Assembly (NCBI RefSeq): GCF_006402735.1
Contig: NZ_CP017174.1
Coordinates: 9,202,001-9,266,000 of the forward strand
DNA: 64,000 nucleotides
Direction of reading: 5' to 3'
From: Myxococcus xanthus
Lineage (GTDB): Bacteria; Myxococcota; Myxococcia; Myxococcales; Myxococcaceae
Below, piece by piece: positions 21,564-29,880 of this stretch; positions within the stretch are counted from its first letter, which is position 1; every line of letters starts with the position of its first letter. The notes under the pieces were generated by a model. The model made no database searches. It worked only from the letters and a program-made list of their open reading frames with translations, and was not told where the DNA came from. A program made the position numbers and the translations under genes.

Positions 21564-23684
21564 ATGCATTCCGTCGCTCGCAGTGTGCTGTGCGTCTTCC
21601 TGCTGTTGTTCGCCCTTCCCTCCCTGGCTCAAGCCGATGCCGGCACGAATCCGAACACCAGCACCCTCATCGGCACGGTGCGCAACGCGCATCAGCGCCG
21701 TCCCATCGCCGATGTCGCCGTGACCGCGAGTTCCCCCAACCTGCAGGGGGAATTGAGAGTCTCGACCGATGCACAAGGGAGCTACCGCATCCCGCAGCTC
21801 CCGCCGGGCGACTACACGCTCACGTTCGAGAAGGAAGGGTTCAAGCCCTACACACGCTCGGCCATCCAACTGCGCCTCAACCGGACCCGCCAGGTCGACG
21901 TGGAACTCCTCTCCGCATCCCAGGAGGAGCCGGTACGTATCATCGGCGCTCCACCGACTATCGACGTGGGCTCCACGACCATGGGAGTGAACGTGGACCA
22001 GGAGTTCATCAAGCGCATCGCCGTCGCCCGTCCGGGTGGCAAGGGCGGCGCTTCCCGCTCCTACGAGCCCCCCGACGCGATGAGAAACCCCCACAGTGTG
22101 TCCCTCAACGGCCCGTCGGTCTCCACCCTGCCCTCGCAGCCCCTGGGCCGTCCGGGGCTCCCGAAGCCTCCGAGCGCGCCTCGACGGGTCATCAGCGCCG
22201 TCGAACCCTCTGAGCCCACCAAGCCCCCTGCGCCCGCAGTGACGCCAGCGCCGGTCTCCCCCTTCCACATGTACTTTCAGGGGTACGGCGTCAATCCCAC
22301 CGTCACCACGGAGGAGGAGCGCTTCTCCACCTTCTCCGTCGACACGGATTCCGCGTCGTACACGCTGACGCGGGCCTACCTGGAGCGCGGCAGCCTTCCC
22401 AATGAGCAGGCCGTCCGCGTGGAGGAGTTCGTCAACACCTTCGACTACGGCTACGCGCACCAGGGCAGCGCGCCCTTCAGCGTCCAGGTGGAAGGCTTCC
22501 CGTCCCCCGTACGCAAGGGCTACCACGTGGTCCACGTCGGTGTGAAAGCCTGGGAGGTCCCCCGCGTGGAGCGCAAGCCGAGCCACCTGGTCTTCGTCAT
22601 CGATGTGTCCGGCTCCATGAACCTGGAGAGCAGGCTGGGCCTGGTGAAGCGGTCACTGCACCTGCTCGTGAACGAACTGGATGAGCGCGACCAGGTCTCC
22701 ATCGTCGTGTACGGCTCCACCGCGCGCCTGGTGCTGGAGCCCACCAGCGCCGTGCATCCGCACATCATCCGCGCCGCCATCGACAGCCTGTACCCCGAGG
22801 GCTCCACCAACGCGCAGGCCGGCCTTGAGATGGGCTATTCGCTCGCGGCCTCGCACCTCGTGGAAGGCGGCATCAACCGCGTCATCCTGTGCTCGGACGG
22901 CGTGGCCAACACCGGGCTCACCGACGCCGACAGCATCTGGCAGCGCATCCGTGCTCGCGCGGCGAAGGGCATCACCCTGTCCACCGTTGGCTTCGGCATG
23001 GGCAACTACAACGACGTGCTGATGGAGCGCCTGTCCCAGGTGGGCGAGGGCCACTACGCCTACGTGGATCGGATTGAAGAGGCGCACCGCATCTTCGTGC
23101 GCGACCTCACCGGCACGCTCCAGGTGGTGGCCAAGGACGTGAAGCTCCAGATGGAGTTCAACCCGGAGGCCGTGTCCCACTACCGGCTGCTCGGCTACGA
23201 GAACCGCATGCTCACCAAGGAGCAGTTCGCCGATGACCGCGTGGACGCGGGCGAAATCGGCGCGGGCCACGCCGTCACCGCACTCTACGAAGTGAAGCTG
23301 ACCGAGCCCTCCGCGTCCTTCGGCACGCTGCGCATCCGCTACAAGGCGCCGGAGGGTGGAGACTCGCAGCTCATCGAGAAGCCGCTGCCGTCGAGCGTCA
23401 TCCGTCCCGCCTATGGCCGCGCCACGCCGCCCACACGCCTGTCCTACGTGGCCGCCGCCTTCGCCGAGAAGCTGCGTGGCTCCTACTGGGTGCGCCCGCT
23501 GTCCTACGACGCCCTGTTCTCCCTCTGGGAGGAGATTGGCCAGCCGCTGAAGGGGCGCGAGGACGTCATGGGGCTGGGCACCCTCATCCAGAAGGCCCGC
23601 ACCCTGGACCGCCGCGCGGACCGCTTCGAGGCCTTCGCCCCGGTGAGCACCATGGACTTCGACCGCGTCCCCACCCTGCCCTGA
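21564..23684 (+). CDS. Secreted VWA-domain (YfbK-like) protein with Oar/TonB-receptor-like N-terminus
   Basis: 706 residues. Signal peptide 1-24 (LPSLAQA). Residues about 35-115 form a carboxypeptidase-regulatory-like domain (TLIGTVRNAHQRRPIADVAV, GSYRIPQLPPGDYTLTFEKEGF). Residues about 125-170 resemble the plug-entry segment of Oar-type TonB-dependent receptors (PPTIDVGSTTMGVNVDQEFI). A Pro-rich linker leads to the YfbK N-terminal domain (FSTFSVDTDSASYTLTRAYL), a VWA domain with MIDAS DVSGS at 347-351 and SDGVANTG, and a C-terminal DUF3520-like part. The last 40 bases are duplicated 970 bases downstream (direct repeat). Function unknown; likely a periplasmic or surface metal-dependent binding protein. 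Confidence 0.88.
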   Translation: MHSVARSVLCVFLLLFALPSLAQADAGTNPNTSTLIGTVRNAHQRRPIADVAVTASSPNLQGELRVSTDAQGSYRIPQLPPGDYTLTFEKEGFKPYTRSAIQLRLNRTRQVDVELLSASQEEPVRIIGAPPTIDVGSTTMGVNVDQEFIKRIAVARPGGKGGASRSYEPPDAMRNPHSVSLNGPSVSTLPSQPLGRPGLPKPPSAPRRVISAVEPSEPTKPPAPAVTPAPVSPFHMYFQGYGVNPTVTTEEERFSTFSVDTDSASYTLTRAYLERGSLPNEQAVRVEEFVNTFDYGYAHQGSAPFSVQVEGFPSPVRKGYHVVHVGVKAWEVPRVERKPSHLVFVIDVSGSMNLESRLGLVKRSLHLLVNELDERDQVSIVVYGSTARLVLEPTSAVHPHIIRAAIDSLYPEGSTNAQAGLEMGYSLAASHLVEGGINRVILCSDGVANTGLTDADSIWQRIRARAAKGITLSTVGFGMGNYNDVLMERLSQVGEGHYAYVDRIEEAHRIFVRDLTGTLQVVAKDVKLQMEFNPEAVSHYRLLGYENRMLTKEQFADDRVDAGEIGAGHAVTALYEVKLTEPSASFGTLRIRYKAPEGGDSQLIEKPLPSSVIRPAYGRATPPTRLSYVAAAFAEKLRGSYWVRPLSYDALFSLWEEIGQPLKGREDVMGLGTLIQKARTLDRRADRFEAFAPVSTMDFDRVPTLP

Positions 23685-23703
23685 GTCCTACGCTCGCGCC
23701 TGG
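23646..23703. repeat. 58-bp direct repeat, left copy (end of VWA gene)
   Basis: Covers the last 13 codons and stop of the VWA gene plus 19 bases. 55 of 58 bases match the right copy at 24620-24677, with the first 43 identical. Together they bracket the alpha/beta hydrolase gene. Confidence 0.9.
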
Positions 23704-23766
23704 TGCGGTCCCCCCAGGGCGCTGGCTCGCGGGGAGCTGGCCTCGCGATCATGTAGAAACAGTTCC

Positions 23767-24564
23767 ATGACGACCTGGATGAGCGGAGTCTGCGAAACGA
23801 ACGGCATCCACATCCACTACCTCCGGACCGGAGGTGCCAAACCTCCCGTCGTTCTGCTCCATGGACTGATGGGGAACGGCGCCTGCTGGACCCCTTTGGC
23901 GCGCGTGCTCGAAGGTGAGTTCGACGTCGTCATGCCCGATGCCAGAGGGCACGGCGGTTCGAGCACGCCGCACCACGGCTACCGGTACGGCGACCACGCG
24001 AGCGACGTCGTGGGCCTCATCCGCGGCCTGGAGTTCTCTCGTCCGGTCCTGCTTGGCCACTCGATGGGTGGAATGACCGCCGCGGTGGTGGCCAGTCGAG
24101 GGATGGGGGGCATCCGCGGCCTCATCCTGGTCGACCCGACGTTCTTGAGTCCCGAGCGCCAACGCGAGGTGCACGACAGCGACGTCGCCGACCAACACCG
24201 CCGGGCCCTCGGCTTGAACAAGTCTGACCTCGTTGCACATGCCCGAGCCCGCAACCCGCATCGCTCGCCCGAAATCATCGACCTTCTCGCCGAGGCGAGA
24301 CTGAAAACCCGCATGGGCGCCTTCGACGTTCTCACGCCGCCCAATCCCGAGTATCGCGACGTGGTGAGCGCGATTGACGTCCCGACCCTCCTCGTCATTG
24401 GGGACCGCAGCCCCGTCGTCACGCTCGAGATGGCAATGGAGCTGCGGAGCCTCAACCCACGCGTGCGAATCGAACAGGTACAGGACGCCGCCCACGGCCT
24501 TCCGTTCGAACAACCCGAGCGCCTGGGAGCCGTGGTCGCATCGTTCTTGCGCGAGCTGACCTAG
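23767..24564 (+). CDS. Alpha/beta hydrolase, inserted gene
   Basis: 265 residues, no signal peptide. Oxyanion-hole HGLMGNG (residues about 33-39), nucleophile elbow GHSMGG near residue 100, an acid in the strand LLVIGDRSPVV, and the catalytic His in DAAHGLPFEQPERLG. The cap region is helical. This fits soluble alpha/beta hydrolases such as haloperoxidase- or lactonase-like enzymes; the substrate is unknown. Its codons use A and T at third positions more than neighbours (for example AAA CCT, GTT, CAT near the start), and the gene lies between 58-bp direct repeats copied from the end of the VWA gene. Both suggest recent acquisition. Confidence 0.88.
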   Translation: MTTWMSGVCETNGIHIHYLRTGGAKPPVVLLHGLMGNGACWTPLARVLEGEFDVVMPDARGHGGSSTPHHGYRYGDHASDVVGLIRGLEFSRPVLLGHSMGGMTAAVVASRGMGGIRGLILVDPTFLSPERQREVHDSDVADQHRRALGLNKSDLVAHARARNPHRSPEIIDLLAEARLKTRMGAFDVLTPPNPEYRDVVSAIDVPTLLVIGDRSPVVTLEMAMELRSLNPRVRIEQVQDAAHGLPFEQPERLGAVVASFLRELT

Positions 24565-24619
24565 TTGCTGCAACCCGCGCTCGAGTCTCCCCACCGCGCC
24601 GTCGGGGCCGCCGTCACCA

Positions 24620-24677
24620 AGCACCATGGACTTCGACCGCGTCCCCACCCTGCCCTGAGTCCCGCGCCCGCGCCTGG
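24620..24677. repeat. 58-bp direct repeat, right copy
   Basis: Near-exact copy of the VWA gene 3' end, now an orphan fragment between the hydrolase and the efflux operon. It marks the right boundary of the inserted segment. Confidence 0.9.
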
Positions 24678-24682
24678 AGTGA

Positions 24683-24702
24683 TGCCCCGCCATGCCGGGG
24701 CA
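24683..24702. terminator. Hairpin between convergent genes
   Basis: TGCCCCG / CGGGGCA with a 6-base loop, between the hydrolase (plus strand) and the outer-membrane efflux gene (minus strand), 6 bases from the latter's stop. No T-run on either side; a weak bidirectional terminator at best. Confidence 0.35.
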
Positions 24703-24708
24703 CTCCCG

Positions 24709-26208
24709 TCAGGGCGCCGTGTCCAACCCCGCCGCGAAGAGCACCGAGGCCTCCGCGACCTTCACCGTCTCCTGCTGCTTCAGGTGAAGCACCCGCATGT
24801 CCTTGAGCGAGCGGAACGCGTCCAGCAACTCCAGGATGTTGCCGCGGCCCTCGCGGTAGGCGTCCTCGGCCATCCGGCGCACCGTGGGCAGGCGCTCCAC
24901 CACGTCGTGCTCCAGACGCGCCAGCGCGCCCTTGCGTCCCTCCAGGACCGCGTGTGCCCGGGACAGCTCCGCGCGGGCCTCGGCCAGCTCCGCTTCCAGT
25001 GCGCGCGCCTCGGCCTGAATCTCCGCGGACGCCCGAGCGATGGAGCCCTGGTTCCGGTCGAAGAGGGGCAGCGGCAGGCCCACACCTACCATGGCGATGG
25101 TGCTCTTCTCGTTCCGCGTGAGCATGACACCCGCCGCCACCGCCGGCACCGGCAGCCGGTCCCGGCGGGCCACGTCCAGGCCACCGCGCGCCACCGCCTG
25201 CCGTGCCCGCGCCGCCACGAGCGACGGCCGACGCTGCTGGGCGGACTCCCACAGAAGCGGCAGGTCGGGCAGGGACTCGGTGGTGCGCAACGAGCCCTGC
25301 GCCCTCGGGTGCCACCCTTCGATGCCGAGCAGCGCGGCCAACCGGCCGGAGGCGTCGTCCACGCTGGCACGCGCGTTCAGCACCTCCACTTCCAGGGCTC
25401 GGCTCTCCACCTCGATGCGCTCCACGTCGTACCGGCTGGAGTCACCCGCCGCGGCGCGCCCCTTCACCACCTTCTCCACGCGGCCCAGGTCCACCGCCGT
25501 CTCCTCCAGCACGCGCAGCTCTTCCTGGTTCGTCAGCAGCGCCGCGAAGGCCTCGCGCACGGCCAGCGCTCGCTCCGCCAGAGAGGCGTTCACCCGCGCC
25601 TGCTCAGCGGACACATTGCGCTCCGCCAGCTCGCGACGCACGCCGCGCTGCCCGAAGATAAGCAGGGGCTGCTCCAGTGACAGCTCGTGCACCACCGACG
25701 AGCCGGTATTCACGCCCGCAGCCAGGAGTTGCGTGCCGTAGCTGAACGACGGATTGGGCAGGATGCCCGCCTCCACCCGGTCCGCTGCCACCACGTCGAT
25801 GCGCGAGCGCTCCGCCGCGGCCCAGGGGCTGCGCTCATCCAGCAGCGACAGCGCCTGCGCCAGGGTGATGCGCTCTGGAGGCGCCGCCTCGGACCGCTTC
25901 AGCTCCTCCAAAGACCGGGCCGACTGGGTCTCGGACCGCGTCTGCGCCAATGCGAGAAGCTCCGGCGGATGCGCCTGCGTGACTCGGTCTGGCAGCGAGA
26001 CTTCAGGCCGCATCGACTCCTGCGAGGCATGCTCCGGCGGAGGCATATTGGACCGATGCCGCGCATGCGTGAGCCGGTCCGGCGGTGTGGCGACAGAGTG
26101 CATCGACTCTGGCGCGAGACGCTCCACAGAAAGCGTCCCGGCCTGCGCCGCCCCGGCACTCCCGGCCGCCAACGTGCCCAGGACGCCCCATACGATGAAC
26201 CGCTTCAT
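24709..26208 (-). CDS. TolC/CzcC-family outer membrane efflux protein
   Basis: 499 residues. ATG at 26208 with GGAGG upstream gives a signal peptide (KRFIVWGVLGTLAAGSAGAAQA). An unusual 90-residue Pro/Arg-rich stretch follows before the typical OEP start RITLAQALSLLDERSP. Two OEP repeats are visible (ILPNPSFSYGTQ, LEQPLLIFGQR; GVGLPLPLFDRNQG), with long coiled-coil hairpins. It forms the outer-membrane channel for the RND pump encoded upstream. Its start overlaps the stop of a 109-codon ORF (ATGA), so expression is coupled to the efflux operon. Confidence 0.88.
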   Translation of the reverse strand: MKRFIVWGVLGTLAAGSAGAAQAGTLSVERLAPESMHSVATPPDRLTHARHRSNMPPPEHASQESMRPEVSLPDRVTQAHPPELLALAQTRSETQSARSLEELKRSEAAPPERITLAQALSLLDERSPWAAAERSRIDVVAADRVEAGILPNPSFSYGTQLLAAGVNTGSSVVHELSLEQPLLIFGQRGVRRELAERNVSAEQARVNASLAERALAVREAFAALLTNQEELRVLEETAVDLGRVEKVVKGRAAAGDSSRYDVERIEVESRALEVEVLNARASVDDASGRLAALLGIEGWHPRAQGSLRTTESLPDLPLLWESAQQRRPSLVAARARQAVARGGLDVARRDRLPVPAVAAGVMLTRNEKSTIAMVGVGLPLPLFDRNQGSIARASAEIQAEARALEAELAEARAELSRAHAVLEGRKGALARLEHDVVERLPTVRRMAEDAYREGRGNILELLDAFRSLKDMRVLHLKQQETVKVAEASVLFAAGLDTAP

Positions 26209-26534
26209 TCCGTGACCTCCGCCTCGCCCTGAACGCCTTCCGTCACCAACGACAGACATGACACTCCCTCGGGGCTGAAACCCCGCTTGGCGCCGCACGG
26301 CTCCGTCTCCGGCAGCGCCCAGTGGGCACGCACCGGCATGAAGCGCTTCAAGCCGCCATTCGCTGAACGCAAACCACTCCGCAGGACGGGCCCACAACCG
26401 GTGTCCCGCCGATGCGCCTCGATGCTCCAGCGGTGCCGGGCCTTGCGGCCCGCCATTCCGCGCCTTGCTCCGCCACCACCGGACACACCGCCGGGAGGTC
26501 TTCTCCGGACTCTCGTTCCGATGAAGCGCCTCAT
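26205..26534 (-). CDS. Small ORF in ATGA chain between czcA-like and czcC-like genes
   Basis: 109 codons; unlikely to resemble any known domain. Starts MRRFIGTRVRRRPPGG with an ATG overlapping the previous ORF's TGA, and its own TGA overlaps the ATG of the outer-membrane gene. About 40 bases around its start (ending GCGAGG-TGACGGTATGA) closely match the bases around the start of the outer-membrane gene. It therefore looks like a duplicated initiation region that has kept an open frame. Composition is Arg/Gly-rich with three cysteines. It could be a real small protein, a coupling leader, or a decayed duplicate; I cannot decide from sequence alone. Confidence 0.4.
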   Translation of the reverse strand: MRRFIGTRVRRRPPGGVSGGGGARRGMAGRKARHRWSIEAHRRDTGCGPVLRSGLRSANGGLKRFMPVRAHWALPETEPCGAKRGFSPEGVSCLSLVTEGVQGEAEVTE

Positions 26535-26707
26535 ACCGTCACCTCGCCCTGACGCCAGCAGCCCCGAGAGGGACCTCCGGCCCGCGGAACACCCCCGCGC
26601 CCGTCAGGCGCTCCCGCCACGCGCGGGACTCGCAGCCCGCCGAAATGGCGCATGCGGCTGCATCCGCAAGACGACCCAGTCACTCGCGTCCCCATGAAGC
26701 GCCTCAT
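26531..26707 (-). CDS. 58-residue ORF, overlaps czcA-like stop
   Basis: Starts at ATG 26707 inside the TGA of the RND pump gene and ends in a TGA overlapping the next ORF. The first residues MRRFMGTRVTGSSCGCSRMR share their beginning with the following ORF (MRRFIGTRV). The CGC-x-R-M-R-H cluster (Cys, Cys, Met, His) would suit a soft-metal ligand set, which is suggestive in a metal-efflux operon but unproven. Confidence 0.4.
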   Translation of the reverse strand: MRRFMGTRVTGSSCGCSRMRHFGGLRVPRVAGAPDGRGGVPRAGGPSRGCWRQGEVTV

Positions 26708-29700
26708 GCCGCCACCCCCGCGGTGCCCTGCTCCGGGCCGTGCCCCTTCGGACCGATGTGCTCCACACCAGCGTCCAGGTCCTCATCGTCCTCGTCGTCC
26801 CCCGAACCCGTGGACGCGGCATGCTTCCCCACGATGACGGAGTAGAAGGCCGGCAGCGCGAACAGCGACACCAGCACCGCCGTCACCAACCCGCCGATGA
26901 TGACCACCGCGAAGGGCCGCTGCGTCTCGCTGCCCGCTCCGCTGGAGAGTGCCGCCGGCATCAACCCCAGCATCGCCAGCAGCGCCGTCATCAGCACCGC
27001 GCGGAAGCGACTGGACGCGCCCGCCGGCAGCGCTGCCTCCAGGGACTCGCCCGCCTTCCGCCGGTCATCCACCGCGCTCACCACCAGCAGCGAGGCCAGA
27101 CACACCTGCCCCAGCAGCGTGATGAAGCCCACGGCCGCGCTCACCGACAACGGGATGCCCGTGACGGCCAGCGCCAGCACGCCGCCACACATCGCGAAGG
27201 GCGCCCCCGCCAGCACCGCGCTCGCGCTCCGCATGGAGCCCAGCGCCGCGTAGAGCAACGCGAACACCACCAGGAAGGAGATGGGCACGATGACCGCCAG
27301 CCGGCCCAGCGCGCGCTCCTGGTTCTCGAACTCGCCGCCCCACTTGAGGAACGTGCCCTCCGGCACCGTCACCTCTCTCTCCACGGTGGCCATGGCCTCC
27401 TGGATGGTGGAGCCCATGTCGCGCCCCTCCACGTTGAACTTCAGCGCCAGGGTGCGGCTGTTCGCCTCGCGGTTGATGCTCGCGCGGCCCAGCGCCTTCT
27501 CCAGCCGCGCCACCTCGCGCAGCGGGACGTGTCCGCCACTGGCGGTGGGCACCAGGATGCCGCCGATGCGCGCCTCGTCGTCACGCTCCGTACCCGGCAG
27601 GATGACGCGCACCGGGACGGGCCGCTCCTGCTCCCACAGCTCCGTCACCACCCGGCCGCCCAGGGCCGTCTCCACCAGGTCCTGCGCGGTGGACACGTCG
27701 ATGCCGGCGCGCGCCAGCGCGGGACGGTCCAGCACCACCTGGAGCTGCGGCACGCTCGAGTCGCGGTAGAGCCCCAGGTCCACCACGCCCTCCACCTTCT
27801 GGAGCGACGCGACGGCCTGCTCCAGCGTGCCGCGCATGGCCGCCAGGTCCGTGCCGAAAATCTTCAGCACCACCTTGCCGCGCACGCCGCTGATGGCCTC
27901 CTCCACGCTGTCCTTGATGGGCTGCGAGAAGTTGAAGCTGACGCCCGGAATCTCCAGCAGCGAGGCGCGCATCTCCCGCACCAGCCGCTCCTTGTCCCAG
28001 CCCTTGCGCCACGTCTCCTCGGGCGTGAAGCGGACGAACGTCTTGCCCATGTTGACGGCCTCGTTGTCCGTGCCGTCCTCCGGGCGGCCCTGCTCGACGA
28101 GCACCTCCTTCACCTCGGGGAAGTCCAGCAGCCTGCGCCGCACCTCCAGGAGAATGTCCGCGCCCTTGCCCAGGGAGATGCTGGCCGGCATCTCCACGAA
28201 GATGTTGATGTCGCCCTCGTCCAGCTCCGGGAGGAACTCACTGCCCACCCGCGAGCCCACCACACCGGTGACGAGCACCAGCGCCGCCATGCTCGCGAAC
28301 ACCAGCGTCTTGCGCGGCATCAGCCACGTCACCGCGCGGCCGTAGCCTTCCCGCAGGGTGGTGAGCAGCTTCGGCTCCTTCACCTCCGCGTCCTGCGGCC
28401 GCAGCAACAGCGCGCACAGGGCGGGCACCACCGTCAGCGCGAAGACGAGCGCGCCCACCAGCGCGAAGCTGTACGTCAGCGACAGCGGCCGGAAGATGCG
28501 GCCCTCCACGCGCTCCAGCGTGAAGACGGGAATGAGCGCGGCGATGATGATGGCCATCGCGAAGAACGTCGGCCGCGCCACATCCAGCGCCGAGCGCAGG
28601 ATGAGCCCCAGCATCTCCTTGCGCCGCCGGGGCCGCTGCACGCCCGCTTCGTGCAACACGTTCTCCACCAGCACCACCGCGCCATCCACCAGGATGCCGA
28701 AGTCGATGGCGCCCATGGAGATGAGGTTGGCGGGCAGGCCCACCATCTTCAGGCCGATGAAGGCCGTCAGCAGCGCCAGGGGGATGACGGACGCGACGAT
28801 GAGCGAGCAGCGCAGGCTGCGCAGGAACAGCCACGCCACCGCCACCACCAGCAACGCGCCGTGCAGCAGGTTGTGATGCACCGTGGACAGCGTGTGTCCC
28901 ACCAGCACGTTCCGGTCATAGAAGGCCTCGATGCGCATGCCCTTGGGCAGCACCCGCGAGTTCAGCTCCTCCACCTTCGCGTGCACGCCCTCCAGCACCG
29001 TGCTGGGGTTCTCCCCTCGGCGCAGCAGGACGACGCCCTCGGTGACGTCCATGTCCAGGTTGTGGCTCACCGACCCACGGCGCGGCGTGTGCGACGCCAC
29101 CACCCGCGCCACGTCGCCCACCGTCACCGGCGTGCCGTCCTCGCTCTTGAGGACGATGCTCTGCACGTCCCGCGCGCCGCGCAGATAGCCGACCCCGCGG
29201 ATGAGCAACTCCTGGTCGCCCTGGCGCAGGAAGCCGCCACCCACGTTGCGGTTGGAGCGCGACAGCGCCTCGGTGACGTCCGCCAGCGTGAGCTCGTGCG
29301 CGAGCAGCCGCGACGGGTCCACCTGGACGTGGAACTCCTTGAGGAAGCCGCCCAGGCTGAGCACGTCCGCCACGCCGGGCACCTGACGCAGGTGCCGCGC
29401 GATGTTCCACTCCATCTCCGAGCGCGTCTCGGTCAGGGTGTGCCGGTCGCTCAGCACGCGGAACTGGTAGATTTTGCCCAGCGGCGTGGCCTCGGGCGCC
29501 AGCCGCACGTCCGCGCCGTCCGGCATGTCCGCGTTGGACATGCGCTCCCCGACGATGGTGCGCGCCTTGAACGGGTCCACGCCGTCATCGAAGGTGAGGA
29601 AGAGGAGCGACAGGCCAAAGAGGCTCTCGCTGCGCATCTGCACCATGCCCGGCGTGCCGTTGAGCACGCGCTCCAGGGGCACCGTCACCTGCCGCTCGAT

Positions 29701-29880
29701 TTCCTCGGGCGCCAGCCCGGGCATCTGCGCGATGACATTCACCTGGAGGTTGGTGACATCCGGAAACGCCTCCACGGGCGTCTCCAGGTAGGCCTTCACA
29801 CCGAAGAGGCCGATGCCCAGCGTCAGCAGCAGGACGGGCAGGCGGCTCCGGACACAGAACGCGATGAGTGCTCGCAACAT
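26704..29880 (-). CDS. CzcA-type heavy-metal RND efflux pump
   Basis: 1058 residues, the normal size for RND transporters. It uses the proton gradient to expel cations through a tripartite complex. TM1 is LPVLLLTLGIGLFGVKAYL, followed by the porter domain start VEAFPDVTNLQVNVIAQMPG. The TM4 signature AIDFGILVDGAVVLVENVLHE has the acidic residues and spacing of the heavy-metal (HME) subfamily rather than drug pumps. A second TM set begins near residue 530. The C-terminus has an acidic DDEDDED run. Which metal is exported cannot be told. 21 bases separate it from the upstream adaptor gene. Confidence 0.92.
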   Translation of the reverse strand: MLRALIAFCVRSRLPVLLLTLGIGLFGVKAYLETPVEAFPDVTNLQVNVIAQMPGLAPEEIERQVTVPLERVLNGTPGMVQMRSESLFGLSLLFLTFDDGVDPFKARTIVGERMSNADMPDGADVRLAPEATPLGKIYQFRVLSDRHTLTETRSEMEWNIARHLRQVPGVADVLSLGGFLKEFHVQVDPSRLLAHELTLADVTEALSRSNRNVGGGFLRQGDQELLIRGVGYLRGARDVQSIVLKSEDGTPVTVGDVARVVASHTPRRGSVSHNLDMDVTEGVVLLRRGENPSTVLEGVHAKVEELNSRVLPKGMRIEAFYDRNVLVGHTLSTVHHNLLHGALLVVAVAWLFLRSLRCSLIVASVIPLALLTAFIGLKMVGLPANLISMGAIDFGILVDGAVVLVENVLHEAGVQRPRRRKEMLGLILRSALDVARPTFFAMAIIIAALIPVFTLERVEGRIFRPLSLTYSFALVGALVFALTVVPALCALLLRPQDAEVKEPKLLTTLREGYGRAVTWLMPRKTLVFASMAALVLVTGVVGSRVGSEFLPELDEGDINIFVEMPASISLGKGADILLEVRRRLLDFPEVKEVLVEQGRPEDGTDNEAVNMGKTFVRFTPEETWRKGWDKERLVREMRASLLEIPGVSFNFSQPIKDSVEEAISGVRGKVVLKIFGTDLAAMRGTLEQAVASLQKVEGVVDLGLYRDSSVPQLQVVLDRPALARAGIDVSTAQDLVETALGGRVVTELWEQERPVPVRVILPGTERDDEARIGGILVPTASGGHVPLREVARLEKALGRASINREANSRTLALKFNVEGRDMGSTIQEAMATVEREVTVPEGTFLKWGGEFENQERALGRLAVIVPISFLVVFALLYAALGSMRSASAVLAGAPFAMCGGVLALAVTGIPLSVSAAVGFITLLGQVCLASLLVVSAVDDRRKAGESLEAALPAGASSRFRAVLMTALLAMLGLMPAALSSGAGSETQRPFAVVIIGGLVTAVLVSLFALPAFYSVIVGKHAASTGSGDDEDDEDLDAGVEHIGPKGHGPEQGTAGVAA

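Follow-up and report, generated by a model that had tools for sequence, protein, structure and literature searches.

The alpha/beta hydrolase gene in the 64,000-nucleotide stretch of Myxococcus xanthus DNA analyzed here (the window) is a lone gene that, as comparison with related genomes demonstrates, was inserted between two convergent genes, encoding a VWA-domain protein and a TolC-type outer-membrane efflux protein, that is flanked by a duplication of ~216 bp with both neighbors preserved, and that has been transferred across genera. We infer that the initiating event was probably the entry of this horizontally acquired gene into the convergent VWA/tolC gap in an ancestor of the Myxococcus clade, via host recombination or repair. 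Related bacteria differ to a large extent through the gain and loss of single genes, and the entry of a bare gene without mobile-element machinery is rarely visible. The hydrolase offers empty and filled sites, a long duplication, arm conversion, what was probably a clean loss, and many independent landings that have their 5' edge in common; as all of these states are visible for one gene, the mechanism of lone-gene entry becomes testable.

The VWA/tolC site, its repeat and its later history

A sequence-only reading of this locus had described the hydrolase as an insertion between direct repeats of 58 bp, 55 of them identical, with the final 39 bases of the VWA ORF plus 19 bases duplicated behind the hydrolase. 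Our repeat search of the site recovered the same arrangement, as a single direct pair at 23646-23703 and 24620-24677 (spacing 974) that extends to 69 bases at 90% identity (Table 1). The repeat is restricted to this one locus in the 9.3-Mb genome, and by a rough binomial estimate a 55/58 match has a probability of ~1e-16 over all window pairs, which places it far beyond chance. An assembly artefact is excluded, because three independently assembled relatives show the same architecture. The repeat search found no inverted repeat pair at the ends of the unit, which thus has no terminal inverted repeats, and neither a tRNA gene nor an Rfam match or other RNA gene was found at the site. The earlier reading was also correct that no recombinase is present: by the ORF list and Pfam, the hydrolase is the sole family-matched ORF in the 974-bp unit. 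Its claim of different codon use stands as to direction, with a GC3 of 0.81 for the hydrolase vs. a mean of 0.89 (sd 0.05) for 36 long ORFs of the window, but the difference is only mild.

Table 1. Features of the VWA/tolC site (window coordinates).
Feature	Position	Strand	Basis or remark
VWA-domain protein gene (CarboxypepD_reg, vWF_A, VWA, YfbK_C), intact, upstream neighbor	21564..23684	+	Pfam; ORF list
Upstream duplication arm (VWA end and intergenic sequence)	23646..23714		First 58 bp match the downstream arm at 55/58
Junction filler and short leader ahead of the hydrolase start	23715..23766	+	Common to G013, G023 and G024 only
Alpha/beta hydrolase gene, inserted, 265 aa, nucleophile motif GHSMGG	23767..24564	+	Pfam PF00561, PF12697; NCBIfam
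3' tail of the putative mobile unit	24565..24619	+	G060 (55 bp) and G058 (53 bp) have it after the hydrolase too, at unrelated loci
Downstream duplication arm, 58 bp, trimmed	24620..24677		In relatives, ~70-95 bp of the VWA ORF remain
TolC-type outer-membrane efflux gene (OEP), intact, convergent with VWA and hydrolase	24709..26208	-	Pfam; the start at 26208 is our choice, the listed ORF starting at 26397
AcrB-family pump gene, same efflux cluster as tolC	26704..29880	-	Pfam PF00873

The site comparison covered 27 genomes of the genus. Besides the window, filled sites (VWA, hydrolase, second repeat, tolC) were found in three genomes, G013, G023, and G024, and empty sites, in which tolC comes immediately after VWA and the repeat is present once, in four (G025, G022, G007, and G014). 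A one-copy empty site at an orthologous locus was the check that the sequence-only reading had proposed, and the filled and empty sites together bear out its view of the hydrolase as an insertion; an old tandem event, which would have left both repeat copies and the hydrolase in all relatives, is not what the empty relatives display. Both VWA and tolC survive the insertion intact, including the VWA gene end, as had been supposed.

In the filled relatives the upstream arm comprises the whole intergenic region followed by 48 bp of a tolC end whose truncation point is identical to the base in G013 and G024; in G013 the downstream arm begins 95 bp before the VWA end. The corresponding span in the empty G025 is ~216 bp, and arm length ranges from 58 bp in the window to ~216 bp in relatives, spanning the ends of VWA and tolC. 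Because the arms of the filled relatives are longer and the G025 span is ~216 bp, the 58 bp of the window is, on this comparison, the trimmed remnant of a duplication over the 3' ends of two convergent genes. The analogy previously drawn with integrative elements at tRNA ends is not supported, as there is no tRNA and no short fixed att-like core, but a duplicated stretch of at least ~216 bp that takes in the 3' ends of both genes and is trimmed differently in each lineage. All four carriers share a filler of ~50 bp before the hydrolase, and the insertion at VWA/tolC therefore most likely happened once. Only the last ~16 bp of this filler resemble the leader of hydrolase copies at other sites, and a search for its origin elsewhere found only short, weak matches.

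In a tree of VWA and tolC, the empty G025 groups with the carriers G013, G023, and G024 (support 100), and the carrier G000 lies outside. The rpoB dS values (0.031-0.045 between G025 and the carriers compared, and 0.058-0.064 between G022 and those compared) agree with placement of G025 inside the carrier clade. Since an empty genome falls within the insert-bearing clade, the simplest reading is a single gain followed, probably, by clean loss in G025 through recombination between the arms; the same pattern would result if the locus had been replaced by that of an empty strain. The two arms of G013 have private bases in common (CCCTTCCC), and those of G024 show no difference over 58 bp and one difference in 88 positions. 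Such private bases within a genome point to conversion between the arms.

Between the hydrolase and the downstream arm, G023 has ~330 bp of debris (L033 3986-4310) that is also present in G024, and a degenerate relative of it lies at G007:C1:1260771. The debris in G013, G023, and G024 looked transposase-like to us, an identity for which there was no Pfam match even at an E-value of 1.

The hydrolase gene and protein at other loci

Among the other genomes of the family, 22 have a full copy of the hydrolase ORF, a single one each, with 76-94% DNA identity to that of the window, and one further copy was found in a genome of another family of the same order. The bare ORF, with a leader of no more than ~42 bp and a tail of 0-55 bp, stands at ~14 unrelated loci in Myxococcaceae genera, and the flanks of these loci are mutually unrelated beyond the gene, excepting same-site carriers and small rearranged stretches. 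For instance, in Corallococcus G042 the ORF, with a leader of ~20 bp and almost no tail, has an AcrB-family pump gene on one side and a convergent pseudouridine-synthase gene on the other, and the same site is empty in G045 and G057. Sorangium, Polyangium and a Kofleriaceae MAG have relatives with 83-88% amino-acid identity, and at 55-64% there is a scatter of relatives that includes ones in Bradyrhizobium, Nocardioides, Chlamydiae, and Pelotomaculum.

Between G001 and G060, G032, and G058 the hydrolase dS is 0.03-0.05 and the rpoB dS 0.25-0.28, and between the window and G060 the values are 0.15 and 0.32, respectively. The synonymous distance of the hydrolase is far too small relative to that of rpoB for vertical descent across genera, and the distances show that the gene passed horizontally across genera. 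A search for plasmid or phage carriage found only relatives below 60% identity, and defense-system models gave no match. No target duplication of 20 bp or longer brackets the gene at the other hydrolase loci checked (12 in all), and for this reason we assign the duplication to the VWA/tolC landing and not to the unit. Hydrolase fragments at L094 (G029:C1:1536494-1536589) and L093 (G059:C10:462650-462786) represent decayed or partial copies at further sites, that of G029 matching the copy in G060 at 99% over 96 bp.

The product is, judged by its domain match, an ordinary alpha/beta hydrolase: it scores 103.8 bits to PF00561 against a gathering score of 25.8 and has the nucleophile elbow GxSxG in the form GHSMGG. 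The best NCBIfam scores are to enol-lactonase and esterase types, below every curated cut-off among the matches listed, and the relatives of solved structure are esterases and related enzymes. A dN/dS of ~0.2-0.3 for the more distant pairs indicates that the protein has been kept by selection. The hydrolase of the window adjoins an OEP-AcrB-HlyD efflux cluster (23767-29880), and that of Corallococcus, at a site independent of the window's, is 20 bp behind the AcrB-family pump gene (L087 1504-6441). The scattered distribution and the AcrB-type efflux neighbors at two independent sites lead us to guess that the enzyme may be a detoxifying esterase or lactonase.

Where the unit begins and ends

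At six unrelated loci (in G060, G032, G001, G016, G043, and G045) mean pairwise identity rises from ~0.3 to 1.0 at position -42 from the start codon. A ragged 3' edge lies 0 to 55 bp past the stop codon, and the longest tail (53-55 bp) is common to the window, G060, and G058. In G016 and G011, flanking sequence that is 89-93% conserved in relatives stops at -44 and -42, from which it follows that these two joints are recent and sharp. Ends repeated at nearly one base are not expected of random DNA fragments, and the sharp 5' edge would fit a copy made from RNA or machinery that acts in trans. We nonetheless hold it decidedly unlikely that the hydrolase constitutes a mobile unit with precise boundaries and no enzyme of its own, crossing genera and even orders with a leader from ~-42 and a ragged 3' end. 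If it were so, the pattern would be as expected of a bacterial retrogene, in which a transcript is copied to DNA that is then inserted, or of an unknown trans-acting machine. Reverse transcriptase is present in 10 of the 11 genomes checked, which is permissive only and no evidence for retroposition. The hydrolase tail folds no better than shuffled sequences and contains no terminator, stable fold or significant hairpin, and no sigma-70-like promoter was found ahead of the hydrolase. The sharp 5' edge common to independent landings is the part of these results most worth pursuing.

The edges bear on two further explanations. One is a cryptic transposon or integrase element whose enzyme has been lost or acts in trans, the 58 bp serving as its attachment site; the sharp end at -42 at six unrelated sites and our impression of transposase-like debris beside the hydrolase in G013 and G023/G024 would be consistent with it. 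We consider it improbable, as the repeat is inconstant in length and is not shared with the other hydrolase sites, the unit has no terminal inverted repeats, and the debris has no Pfam match and, in G023/G024, is not multicopy. The other is that the hydrolase is an old, vertically inherited gene whose contexts were rearranged and whose copies were made alike by recent homologous replacement. Replacement halts where homology halts and would mimic sharp edges, and the gene is also present in Sorangium, Polyangium and the Kofleriaceae MAG, but the existence of true empty sites at two loci (VWA/tolC and the Corallococcus pump/pseudouridine-synthase site) and the recent junctions in G016 and G011 make this explanation very improbable.

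Mode of entry and likeness to known systems

In the explanation we favor, entry through host recombination or repair, the hydrolase would have arrived horizontally as a lone gene in an ancestor of the Myxococcus clade and would have been joined by host functions rather than by a site-specific recombinase. A target-bearing circle could have entered by a single crossover, or the joining could have been by homology-facilitated illegitimate recombination or by repair of a break with widely offset ends. RecA-type recombination between the resulting long direct repeats would homogenize the arms and, in some lineages, cleanly delete the insert, and deletions would have trimmed the arms to the 58 bp seen in the window. 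Host recombination or repair fits because the target duplication is long and both genes are intact, and a site-specific integrase does not fit because there is no recombinase, no constant core and no tRNA. Counting against the favored explanation is that the duplication is peculiar to the VWA/tolC site among the hydrolase loci checked.

Past the VWA part the arms differ strongly and are of different intergenic types: a 22-bp hairpin is absent from two of the three longer upstream arms, as in G022, and present in the downstream arms, as in G025. Because of this difference, one arm may derive from a donor instead of from simple duplication, which also counts against the favored explanation. Two arm types would be expected from a Campbell-type event, a specific form of the favored explanation in which a circle bearing the hydrolase and the VWA-tolC junction of a related strain integrates by a single crossover to give A-B-insert-B-C, which also reproduces exactly the anatomy of two long direct arms and two intact genes. 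The circle would need to hold both parts already, and none was seen, and the arm difference is also explicable by drift in the upstream arm, where the tolC part is no longer coding; we regard this form as possible but somewhat doubtful. Repair of a break staggered by ~200 nt, with the ends filled in and joined around captured DNA, is a second specific form of entry by host repair, one that literature on eukaryotes calls patch-mediated. It would account for the long target duplication, the short unmatched filler at the 5' junction and an insert without transposon ends, but the other hydrolase sites have no such duplication and we judge it unlikely.

Transposed Arabidopsis genes are flanked by genic direct repeats homologous to the empty orthologous target, and insertion of a circle, the model to which the Campbell-type form corresponds, was proposed as the mechanism (Woodhouse et al., 2010, PMC2869330). 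The hydrolase resembles these in being a non-transposon gene at a new place with direct repeats of the target, one copy of which stands at the empty orthologous site. It differs in that movement in Arabidopsis is within the genome of a eukaryote, whereas here the transfer is across genera in a bacterium and the duplication is found at one of many sites. Among bacterial microdiversity segments, ~10-18% have flanking direct repeats, most of them <30 bp, and illegitimate recombination was given as the main origin of the segments (Touzain et al., 2010, PMC2884548). The hydrolase is likewise a small variable segment without mobile-element features, although its repeats in relatives are at least ~216 bp and the one gene occupies many unrelated sites with a fixed 5' edge. 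The locus clearly exemplifies a lone gene that was inserted with a long duplication of its target, near to the former genes (PMC2869330) in anatomy and to the latter segments (PMC2884548) in kind.

Integrative elements at gene 3' ends (genomic islands, ICEs) likewise keep the gene end through a repeat on the far side and have a one-copy empty site, but here there is no integrase, the insert is one gene, and the repeat is inconstant and spans two genes. Unlike the passenger of an insertion sequence or transposon, the hydrolase has no terminal inverted repeats and its target duplication is ~216 bp rather than short. An integron cassette is similarly one ORF with little else in unrelated contexts, but no aligned cassette array was seen here and there is no significant hairpin in the tail. 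In patch-mediated double-strand-break repair, a term used for eukaryotes and known from work on rice, unrelated DNA is inserted and bracketed by a tandem duplication of the target, and the hydrolase too is bracketed by a target duplication.

Other lone genes beside the hydrolase look as if they move similarly, and lone-gene shuffling may be general in large Myxococcus genomes. The neighbors of the hydrolase in G016 (L046 3779-4388 and 5248-5827) are ~600-bp single-gene segments that recur within the genus: G011 and G001 have both, and G003 and G006 have the second. Their edges are sharp and their surroundings unrelated. Genes that appear kinase-like by eye from their translations, with ~68-90% DNA likeness, lie no more than a few kb from several of the lone-gene sites; these were seen at L045, L046, and L153-L156 in G001, G011, and G016.
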